Assembly: GCA_012729555.1 (NCBI GenBank)
Contig: JAAYCX010000064.1
Span: 1-43,704 of the forward strand
Length of the DNA stretch: 43,704 bases
Origin: Acidobacteriota bacterium
Lineage (GTDB): Bacteria > Acidobacteriota > UBA6911
Direction: 5' to 3'
Of this stretch, positions 6,076 to 8,537 are shown piece by piece (the first letter of the stretch is position 1; each line of letters starts with the position of its first letter). The notes beneath the pieces are model-generated. The model was not told where the DNA came from. It saw only the letters and a list, made by a program, of their open reading frames with translations, and made no database searches. The position numbers and the translations under genes were made by a program.

Positions 6076-6888
6076 TCATGATAGCACCGTCTTCGGGACG
6101 CCGGAAAGCCCTTTCGCCCCCACCTTCCGCCGCAGCTTCCCGGTCTTGCCGGCGGGCGGGAATTTCCTTTCGCCCGCCCTGACGGGAACGGAGAGGGTGT
6201 TGGCCGCCGGCGGCAGCGGGCAGCTGTAATCGGGATTGTAGGCGCAGTAGGGGTTGTACGCCCGGTTGAAATCCAGGTCGTAGGTCCCCGAAGTGTTTTC
6301 CGCCAGATCGATATAGCGGCCGGCCCCGTAGGTCTCGTCCCCCGAGGTGGCGTCCCGGAACGGGACGAAGAGCGAGGGGGAGGCGGTATCTGCGAAGCGG
6401 AAGACCTCCAGGCGGCAGTCGCGGTCCCCCACCCGGAATTCGAACCAGCCGTAGCGGAGGGCGTCGCGGACCTCGCCGGTGTTGGTCCCCATGCGCACGG
6501 GGGAGGCGACCTCGTAGCGACGGAGCCGCACCGAAAACCTGAGCGAGGGATCGACGGGGTAATAGGAAAGGCCCCGGAACGCCGCGCGCCCGGCGGCGGG
6601 GATGGGGGACTCCGCCCCCGACCTGAAGGCCTCGTCCTTCGCCTCCCTTTCCAGGAGGAGGGCGGACGCCCCGGGCGCGGACGTCCCGGGCGCGGACACC
6701 TCGGGCGCGGACACCTCGGGCGCGGACGCCTCGGGCGCGGACGCCTCGGGCGCGGACGCCCCGGGGGCTCCTTCAGGGGGGGCCCCCTCAGGGGGGGACG
6801 GCGCGCGCCCGCACCCTGACAGCGCCAGCGCGAACAACCCACAGGCGGCGCAGAGCGTCCGCCGGCGCACTCCCGATCGCCTGTTCAT
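6076..6888 (-). CDS. DUF1684 family lipoprotein
   Basis: This is a predicted exported lipoprotein of 270 residues with no known reaction. A basic N-terminus and hydrophobic segment end in the lipobox LSGC, with Cys26 the lipidation site. Residues of about 42-76 form a low-complexity Ser-Ala-Pro-Glu linker built from five-residue repeats. The DUF1684 core follows, with its hallmark stretch TYGAGRYIDL, then DLDFNRAYNPYCAYNPDYSCPLPP and the C-terminal AGERKFPP. ATG 6888 is chosen because it gives the signal peptide and has GGAGG upstream; the open frame extends further without support. The linker repeats suggest a flexible stalk between membrane anchor and domain. Confidence 0.85.
   Translation of the reverse strand: MNRRSGVRRRTLCAACGLFALALSGCGRAPSPPEGAPPEGAPGASAPEASAPEASAPEVSAPEVSAPGTSAPGASALLLEREAKDEAFRSGAESPIPAAGRAAFRGLSYYPVDPSLRFSVRLRRYEVASPVRMGTNTGEVRDALRYGWFEFRVGDRDCRLEVFRFADTASPSLFVPFRDATSGDETYGAGRYIDLAENTSGTYDLDFNRAYNPYCAYNPDYSCPLPPAANTLSVPVRAGERKFPPAGKTGKLRRKVGAKGLSGVPKTVLS
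6662..6766. repeat. Seven tandem 15-bp repeats inside the lipoprotein gene
   Basis: The unit GCGGACGCCTCGGGC occurs seven times in a row with minor changes (6662, 6677, 6692, 6707, 6722, 6737, 6752). Being a multiple of three, it adds or removes five residues (SAPEA or a close variant) per copy without a frameshift. Copy number could vary between strains by slippage. Confidence 0.9.
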
Positions 6889-7015: not shown

Positions 7016-7031
7016 TGTGACCCGGGTCACA
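7016..7031. promoter_or_regulatory. Perfect CRP/FNR-type operator palindrome
   Basis: TGTGACCCGGGTCACA is a perfect 16-bp palindrome that fits the CRP consensus TGTGA-N6-TCACA exactly. It lies about 128 bp upstream of the lipoprotein gene and 295 bp upstream of the coiled-coil gene. A GATAAG -10-like hexamer at 7054-7059 would put a plus-strand start at about 7065-7066, with the palindrome centred near -42, the class II activator position. Which CRP/FNR-family protein binds is unknown. Confidence 0.6.
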
Positions 7032-7065
7032 ATCGCGGTCCGAAACTCCTGCCGATAAGGGACCG

Positions 7066-7230
7066 GGTGCGGCCCGCAGCCGCGCCGGAGACGAAAGTTT
7101 TCGGGGATAAACTGCAACCTTTCCGGGAGAATGTCGTTATTGAAAGGAGACCCTCAAACCCAGTACAACACCTCCTTTCAGGGGGCGGCGGGGGATGGAA
7201 GATTCCACCCCCGCCGCCCTTCCTTTTTCG
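7066..7230 (+). ncRNA. Candidate small RNA with an anti-Shine-Dalgarno segment
   Basis: This stretch of about 165 nt has no convincing reading frame but ordered RNA features. A perfect 9-bp stem pairs TGAAAGGAG (7141-7149) with CTCCTTTCA (7172-7180), and a strong terminator hairpin follows directly. The right arm contains CACCTCCTTTC (7169-7179), identical to the 3' end of bacterial 16S rRNA including the anti-Shine-Dalgarno core. The 5' end is inferred from the GATAAG hexamer downstream of the CRP-type site. It could instead be the leader of a lost gene. Its existence as an RNA is inference. Confidence 0.35.
7183..7229 (+). terminator. Strong intrinsic terminator
   Basis: A perfect 12-bp stem (GGGCGGCGGGGG at 7183-7194 with CCCCCGCCGCCC at 7208-7219) is followed by TTCCTTTTT. 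No annotated plus-strand gene ends here, so it most likely ends the candidate small RNA. Confidence 0.7.
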
Positions 7231-7250
7231 CCCGCAGTCCGCGATCCCGG

Positions 7251-7279
7251 TTGACACCCCCGGGGGCTTTCGATAGTCT
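7251..7279 (+). promoter_or_regulatory. Candidate promoter for the coiled-coil/GAF-like gene
   Basis: TTGACA (7251-7256) with a 17-bp spacer to TAGTCT (7274-7279) lies just after the terminator. It would start transcription near 7286, about 25 nt before ATG 7311. Confidence 0.45.
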
Positions 7280-7310
7280 TCACACAAATTTGAGTGATTA
7301 GGAGCGATCC

Positions 7311-8537
7311 ATGCCCTCCGCAAGAGAATGTGCCGATCGGCTTCGGGAACAGGCCTATAAAACCCTCTCGCCGCAGCTCGAAGCGCTCAATGACGAGCTG
7401 GAGCAGGTCCGCCGTTCCCTCGCCGCGGGGATCGGGCAGCTCGAACAGAAGATAGAGGCGCTGCGGCGTGTCGAACTCCCCGCGATGGCGCCCGCGCTGG
7501 ACGGGATGCTCGAGGAGTCGATCCGGGCACGCGACCTGGAATCGGAGGCCCTGGCACAATTCACGCACGACCTGGGCCGGATGGAGACCCAGGAACAGAT
7601 CCTCACCCTCCTGCTCGACGCGGCGGCCCGCTGCTCCGCGCGCGTCGCCCTGTTCGCGCTGCGCGACGGACGGCTCACCGGCTGGTCGTCGAGGGGGTTC
7701 GCCGAGGACGCCGCCAGGACGATCGGGGCCGATTCCTTTTCCCCGGACGCGTGTCCCGAATTCGGGGACGCCCTCGCCGCCGCGACGCCCGTGGAAGCCT
7801 CCAGCCTGCCCGAAGCCCCCTCGCTCGCGCCCATCCAGGCGGAGTGCCGGGGCCCCTGGCGCCTCCAGGCGCTCCGCGTGCTCGACCGCCCCGTCGCCCT
7901 GCTGGTTGCCGGGGGGGGGGACGGCGTCTCGGCAAGGCCGCAGGCGCTCTCCATCCTCGTGAATTTCACCGCCCTGCGCCTCGAAAACATCGCGCTCCGG
8001 CTCCTGCGCGAATTCCGCGAACCGGCCGCACCCGCACCCGGCGACGGCCTTCCCGAAACCCGCGAAGAACCCAAACCGCAGGCCGGGCCGACGGAGCCCG
8101 CGCCGCCGCCGCCGCAGGCGGAAGATGCCCCGGGGGCGGAGGCCGCGCCAGGCGCCGCGCCGGAAGAACCCGGACACGAGTTCGGAGACTGGGCGGGGAG
8201 CGGCTTCGAGGCTTCCGCCTCTTCAGCCCAGGCGGAGGACTCCCCCGCCGGCGAGGACGAGAGGCTGCACGCGGACGCCAAGCGGTTCGCCCGCCTCCTG
8301 GTATCGGAAATCAAGCTCTACAACGAGACCCACGTCACGGAGGGGCGCCAGAACCAGGATCTCTACCTGAGGCTGAAGCGCGACATCGACCGGAGCCGCG
8401 AGATGTACGAAAAACGGGTCTCCCCGACCGTGGCCGACCGGATCGATTATTTTCACGACGAGATCGTCCGCATTCTGGGGGATAACGACCCCTCGACGCT
8501 CGGAAGCGACTATCCGGGGCCCAGGATTGAAAGTTAG
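7311..8537 (+). CDS. Coiled-coil protein with GAF-like domain and conserved C-terminal helix box
   Basis: I do not recognise a named family for the whole 408-residue protein. Residues 1-90 are heptad-rich and charged, a likely coiled coil. Residues of about 90-225 look like a GAF-type sensor fold (ILTLLLDAAARCSARVALFALRDG ... RPVALLVAGG). A Pro/Ala/Glu linker follows. The last 90 residues carry the block AKRFARLLVSEIKLYNE, then DLYLRLKRDIDRSREMYEKRV, which I recall from zinc-ribbon and response-type proteins of acidobacteria and deltaproteobacteria. AGGAG lies 6 nt before ATG 7311. The product is probably cytoplasmic. The slt lipoprotein gene starts 3 bp after its stop, so the two are likely co-transcribed. 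Confidence 0.75.
   Translation: MPSARECADRLREQAYKTLSPQLEALNDELEQVRRSLAAGIGQLEQKIEALRRVELPAMAPALDGMLEESIRARDLESEALAQFTHDLGRMETQEQILTLLLDAAARCSARVALFALRDGRLTGWSSRGFAEDAARTIGADSFSPDACPEFGDALAAATPVEASSLPEAPSLAPIQAECRGPWRLQALRVLDRPVALLVAGGGDGVSARPQALSILVNFTALRLENIALRLLREFREPAAPAPGDGLPETREEPKPQAGPTEPAPPPPQAEDAPGAEAAPGAAPEEPGHEFGDWAGSGFEASASSAQAEDSPAGEDERLHADAKRFARLLVSEIKLYNETHVTEGRQNQDLYLRLKRDIDRSREMYEKRVSPTVADRIDYFHDEIVRILGDNDPSTLGSDYPGPRIES

Follow-up and report, generated by a model that had tools for sequence, protein, structure and literature searches.

What kind of element occupies the intergenic region between a DUF1684 gene and the divergently oriented gene of a 408-aa protein in an uncultivated bacterium of the phylum Acidobacteriota? 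A preliminary description of positions 7016-7230 in the window, that is, the whole 43,704-nucleotide stretch of DNA analysed here, had proposed a small RNA under CRP/FNR control, carrying a copy of the 16S rRNA 3' tail that could be covered by a Shine-Dalgarno-like sequence within a hairpin. The sequence elements of that proposal, including the palindrome, GATAAG, GAAAGGAG, CACCTCCTTTC, the 3' hairpin and the T run, are all present on reading the sequence and are summarised below, together with the flanking genes and the elements recognised subsequently. No gene was found within the RNA stretch, whose open reading frames are not conserved. The window's genome (G000) and those of two close relatives (G004 and G006) are referred to as the trio.

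6076-6888, minus strand: divergent DUF1684 gene, the left anchor of the locus (PF07920, E 4.3e-47; synteny)
7016-7031, no strand: perfect palindrome TGTGACCCGGGTCACA (TGTGA-N6-TCACA), a CRP-like operator (sequence, genome count, trio alignment)
7054-7059, plus strand: putative -10 hexamer GATAAG, a weak consensus match with GATAA conserved in the trio
7060-7088, plus strand: 5' GC hairpin GGACCGGGUGCGGC-CCGCA-GCCGCGCCGG, from folding and alignments, in the trio only
7107-7220, plus strand: family-conserved RNA core, as matched by covariance model R2
7118-7123, plus strand: 5' arm of helix P1, CCUUUC, after a conserved GCAAC; pairs with 7142-7147
7142-7149, plus strand: GAAAGGAG, which forms the 3' arm of P1 and doubles, within the trio alone, as a Shine-Dalgarno-like lid able to pair with CUCCUUUC
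7169-7179, plus strand: CACCUCCUUUC (DNA CACCTCCTTTC), anti-Shine-Dalgarno-like segment with the seed ACCUCCUU at 7170-7177
7181-7221, plus strand: GC-rich 3' hairpin (intrinsic terminator), from covariation
7224-7228, plus strand: U tract (TTTTT) after the hairpin, from sequence
7251-7279, plus strand: sigma70-like promoter TTGACA-N17-TAGTCT of the 408-aa gene, outside the RNA, conserved in G001, G008 and G009 and in the trio alignment
7311-8537, plus strand: gene of the 408-aa protein, the syntenic anchor; in the genomes compared, its orthologue follows the RNA

Distribution and Synteny of the RNA

A first search at the DNA level recovered only two full relatives and gave the impression that the element was limited to the trio. 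This was overturned by reading the syntenic intergenic gap in other relatives, where a diverged yet recognisable element was present, and by covariance models. The first model, made from two relatives, yielded further copies within the genus and in other genera, and the second (R2) was built from eight sequences. Genome scans with R2 detected the RNA core on the plus strand, as a single copy, in 12 of the 15 genomes of the window's family, with the window's genome matching at E 6.4e-17, and a locus search added a weaker thirteenth copy in G009. The copies span four genera. All comparison genomes were draft assemblies; R2 matched none of the 23 further genomes of the class at E<0.05 and, in a sample of 199 genomes from the phylum, matches were confined to the window's family. 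Rfam contained no family matching the window at gathering score and, for the relatives, nothing was found up to E 0.5 except a microRNA artefact.

In every copy the RNA precedes the same 408-aa gene by 0.2-1.8 kb and shares its strand, and this includes the three R2 matches outside the training set (G011, G014 and G005), all of which are located 0.3-1.8 kb upstream. Genome-wide matches that land beside this gene are not placed by chance and the element must, therefore, be a real conserved feature. Between G000 and G006 the overall identity is 82%, with values of 90% for the palindrome, 92% for the stretch carrying the Shine-Dalgarno and anti-Shine-Dalgarno sequences and 89% for the terminator, against 60-75% for the intervening DNA. 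Comparison of the genomes establishes the locus as conserved, single-copy and syntenic, and as one which would encode an RNA with a covarying terminator hairpin and an invariant segment ACCUC(CUU).

The 408-aa protein has orthologues in nearly all family genomes and yielded no Pfam match; its gene is followed by that of a lytic transglycosylase. In G001, G008 and G009, where the RNA has diverged, DNA search recovered nothing of the region except the promoter of the 408-aa gene, and this indicates that the gene constitutes a separate unit. Across the genus, the interval 7251-7310, comprising this promoter and the 5' UTR of the gene, is conserved beyond most of the intergenic region.

Secondary Structure and Strand

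The RNA from 7057 to 7232 folds with a predicted energy of -85.1 kcal/mol, corresponding to z = -4.9 relative to shuffled sequences. In the second of the two hairpins that had been described, and taken for a terminator, covariation is evident: 96% of cells are paired over its 13 base pairs, both sides have changed at 5 of the 13, and none of 500 shuffles reached its covariation score. The RNA thus ends in a GC-rich hairpin maintained by covariation, as is characteristic of intrinsically terminated, trans-acting sRNAs. A simple terminator scan of the window did not flag this hairpin. A U-rich tail follows it in the trio, and G012 carries a run of eight U, while in many other relatives the tail is weak or absent. 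Strand preference emerged from G004, where the hairpin yields -32.9 kcal/mol on the plus strand against -23.0 on the minus strand; with two C-to-T changes there, the plus strand still forms G-U pairs at positions that would be mismatched on the minus strand, and these wobble changes favour the plus strand.

Upstream from the anti-Shine-Dalgarno-like segment, (A)CCUUU located after the conserved GCAAC is predicted to pair with AAAGG(U), generating helix P1, which is longest in G011 (ACCUUUUU:AAAAAGGU) and was not seen in G007 and G009. Support for P1 from arm matching is modest: matched pairs of arms performed better than clade-swapped pairs, at p about 0.002-0.02 depending on the set, with arms that had been picked on the alignment. 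A further hairpin, UUCAA..UUGAA, lying between P1 and the seed, was considered as a shared element and set aside because it is restricted to G001, G003 and G008.

The Anti-Shine-Dalgarno-Like Segment and Its Predicted Pairing

The most conserved part of the RNA is the segment immediately 5' to the terminator hairpin, where ACCUC occurs in all 13 copies and the complete ACCUCCUU in 9. The three positions following ACCUC, the last of the anti-Shine-Dalgarno sequence, read CUU, GUU, ACC or UAU, and the seed departs from a perfect anti-Shine-Dalgarno sequence in G003, G005, G007 and G009 (CACCUCGUU, CACCUCACC, CACCUCUAU), being ACCUCGUU in both G003 and G005. Within the window CACCTCCTTTC occurs once, and no other site lies within one mismatch, where 0.63 would be expected by chance. 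Its 11-nt identity, which refers to the general bacterial 16S 3' end and not to the 16S tail of this genome, is not family-wide, such that the earlier claim holds for the core ACCUC and, in most copies, for ACCUCCUU.

Exposure of the seed differs between the trio and the other genomes. Outside the trio, the predicted mean probability that the seed is unpaired is 0.60-0.90 in nine of ten genomes and 0.48 in G008, whereas in the trio, where GAAAGGAG is the predicted partner of a largely paired seed, it is 0.25-0.41. The hairpin formed by the Shine-Dalgarno-like and anti-Shine-Dalgarno sequences reaches -13 kcal/mol in the trio and at best -4.2 kcal/mol in the other genomes, where the position of the Shine-Dalgarno-like arm contributes instead to P1. 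Exposure is probably the commoner and the older state of the seed. Since the seed is covered only in the trio, this hairpin of the preliminary description is peculiar to the window's close lineage, and it is the arms of the terminator, rather than those of this hairpin, which are conserved and covary throughout the family. Conservation of the paired arms, the check attached to that description, accordingly gives a mixed answer. Overall, that description is borne out, at the level of sequence comparison, with respect to a plus-strand RNA with a covarying 3' hairpin and a highly conserved anti-Shine-Dalgarno-like segment, but not for the lid hairpin and the CRP site as general features.

The Upstream Palindrome and Candidate Regulators

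GATAAG implies a start near 7066, and the palindrome stands upstream with its centre some 43 bp from it; this spacing is class II-like, such sites being centred near -41.5, and it is conserved in the trio along with the palindrome. The same centre precedes a putative promoter of the divergent gene by about 73 bp. To judge from these distances, the palindrome could act as a class II Crp-type site on the RNA and, from further away, on the divergent gene. A promoter scan of the window did not flag GATAAG. Perfect copies of TGTGA-N6-TCACA number two in the 3.8-Mb genome, and the reversed pattern, used as a control, none. The palindrome core GTGACCCGGGTCAC is invariant in the trio and the palindrome is absent from the other relatives. 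In G001 and G003 an apparent CRP-like site, TGTGAC..ACACA, preceding the RNA was discarded, as it represents the last codons (..YWDIVTTDTIKLR, then stop) of an inserted gene.

The second perfect copy in the genome, TGTGAAACGAATCACA at L018:1501-1516 (G000:C11:86362-86377), precedes genes for a Rex-like repressor and a NuoE-like protein; it resembles a Rex operator and may be one.

CRP control of the RNA, as originally suggested, is plausible for the trio but not general in the family. In its favour, the genome encodes a Crp-family protein (L063) whose CRP-type recognition helix (SRETVTR) closely resembles the one in E. coli CRP; on inspection by eye, the arginine of its cAMP pocket appears to be missing. 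Each of the 11 genomes tested yielded an Hfq-like protein, which exceeded the Pfam cut-off in 9 of them.

The Hfq-like protein of the window's genome (MVNRKLIRPSLSEIKDQMPRYG..., L078, G000:C20:48682-48831) and its homologues L075-L077 and L079 are highly conserved, and in most family members the score lies just over the Pfam Hfq cut-off.

Proposed Function and Alternative Explanations

We consider it reasonably probable, on the evidence of the alignments and predicted folds, that the locus is the gene for a small regulatory RNA, some 115-165 nt in length and read from the plus strand, which acts in trans and bears an anti-Shine-Dalgarno seed. The ACCUC(CUU) segment would block translation of target mRNAs by pairing with their GGAGG-type Shine-Dalgarno sequences, possibly with the assistance of the Hfq-like protein. 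In the trio, the internal Shine-Dalgarno-like arm would additionally cover the seed, and transcription would probably be tuned by the Crp-family protein bound at 7016-7031. Our confidence in the sRNA is tempered by the imperfect seeds, the paired seed of the trio, the missing U tracts and the lack of a conserved target match. In two pattern searches, the 10-nt complement AAGGAGGTGT occurred near no ATG in G000 and at no orthologous genes elsewhere, and the one plausible hit of the target search was a TusA-type start in G008 only. A target co-varying with the seed, carrying near its start codon AAGGAGGTGT in genomes of the G000 type and AACGAGGTGT in G003 and G005, was rejected when the matches turned out to be mostly within coding sequences or unrelated.

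The failure of the pattern searches to find a conserved target would also be consistent with a conserved RNA that does not act on Shine-Dalgarno sequences at all, and in which ACCUC is bound by a protein or by another RNA, for example in a sponge or as a titration target. Constancy of ACCUC beside a variable remainder of the anti-Shine-Dalgarno sequence points in the same direction; on the other hand, retention of the full ACCUCCUU in 9 of 13 copies and four genera, and its exposure in most predicted folds, speak against this explanation, which we judge unlikely. Less credence still is given to a cis-acting leader, similar to an attenuator or riboswitch, in which competition between P1 and the Shine-Dalgarno:anti-Shine-Dalgarno pairing would control termination at the 3' hairpin and thereby the 408-aa gene. 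Such an arrangement would account for the RNA always lying on the strand of that gene, and for the capacity of GAAAGGAG in the trio to pair with either the upstream CCUUUC or the downstream CUCCUUUC. However, this alternative pairing lacks conservation, the hairpin arms showed no antiterminator partner, and none of the Rfam riboswitches matches. Moreover, a highly conserved promoter belonging to the gene itself lies below the hairpin, and the varying distance of 0.2-1.8 kb, across an inserted gene in G011, G013 and G014, argues against a leader; riboswitches and attenuators share a transcript with the adjacent gene that they control, and the separate promoter and variable distance do not fit this.

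The conserved segment could also be read from the opposite strand, where AAGGAGG would be the ribosome-binding site of a short leftward peptide, MGT[LFI]xD..KV[AS]F, and the GC hairpin would fall in its 5' UTR. AAGGAGG-N7-ATG followed by similar starts of 15 residues does occur in G011, G012, G013 and G014. The frame is missing, though, from G000 and G004 (4-6 codons), lacks a start codon in place in G008, is 1-84 codons long elsewhere and, in a manual alignment, shifts within the window's genus. Two synonymous-looking third-codon changes in G011 are, on manual reading, both halves of one P1 pair, and the wobbles in the 3' hairpin favour the plus strand. We regard such a peptide as very improbable.

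Returning to the sRNA, its history in the window's lineage may be modelled as an open, ancestral anti-Shine-Dalgarno RNA which gained the Shine-Dalgarno decoy GAAAGGAG and would toggle between an inactive Shine-Dalgarno:anti-Shine-Dalgarno form and an active P1 form blocking ribosome-binding sites, under a newly acquired Crp-type promoter. This elaboration is speculative and, in our estimation, unlikely to be correct.

Comparison with Known Regulatory RNAs

Small RNAs of the CcsR type in alphaproteobacteria carry CCUCC motifs within C/U-rich sequences resembling anti-Shine-Dalgarno. BjrC80 (RF02354) has a C/U-rich motif of this kind, as does the RNA described here, which scored 21.3 bits (E 0.046) against a gathering score of 80 and thus falls outside that family. 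Spot 42 and CyaR are CRP-controlled sRNAs of enterobacteria; the likeness of the present locus to them, an sRNA beside a CRP-type site, is one of functional analogy without homology, and here the site is confined to three close genomes.

The nearest functional analogue is NfeR1 of Sinorhizobium, which silences mRNAs via anti-Shine-Dalgarno motifs and belongs with the alpha-r14 family, where each of three hairpins carries CCUCCUCCC (PMC10746234). In these rhizobial RNAs the anti-Shine-Dalgarno seed lies in unpaired regions, as is predicted for most copies here, and silencing in trans at ribosome-binding sites is likewise proposed for the present RNA. They differ in that the present RNA carries a single ACCUC(CUU), in the linker before the terminator, either unpaired or in one hairpin, and does not show the three hairpins; no relation in sequence was seen, in line with the absence of an Rfam match. 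If our reading is correct, riboregulation through anti-Shine-Dalgarno seeds, known chiefly in alphaproteobacteria, arose in Acidobacteriota as well, a phylum with few annotated sRNAs (4 in the table of PMC9029176). The locus and covariance model are now defined for tests.

Two minor observations may be added. At four loci from genomes of other genera (L041, L042, L044 and L045) the minus strand of the RNA carries, behind AAGGAGG and a 7-nt spacer, the similar short frames MGTLLDE..RKVAF, MGTFLDGRPRKKVAF, MGTLLDEAEARKVSF and MGTIDDVEKRRKVSF. In the window, positions 6680-6762 contain short in-frame repeats of the GCGGACACCTCGGGC type which encode (EVSAP)n-like repeats in the N-terminal part of the lipoprotein-like DUF1684 gene product.
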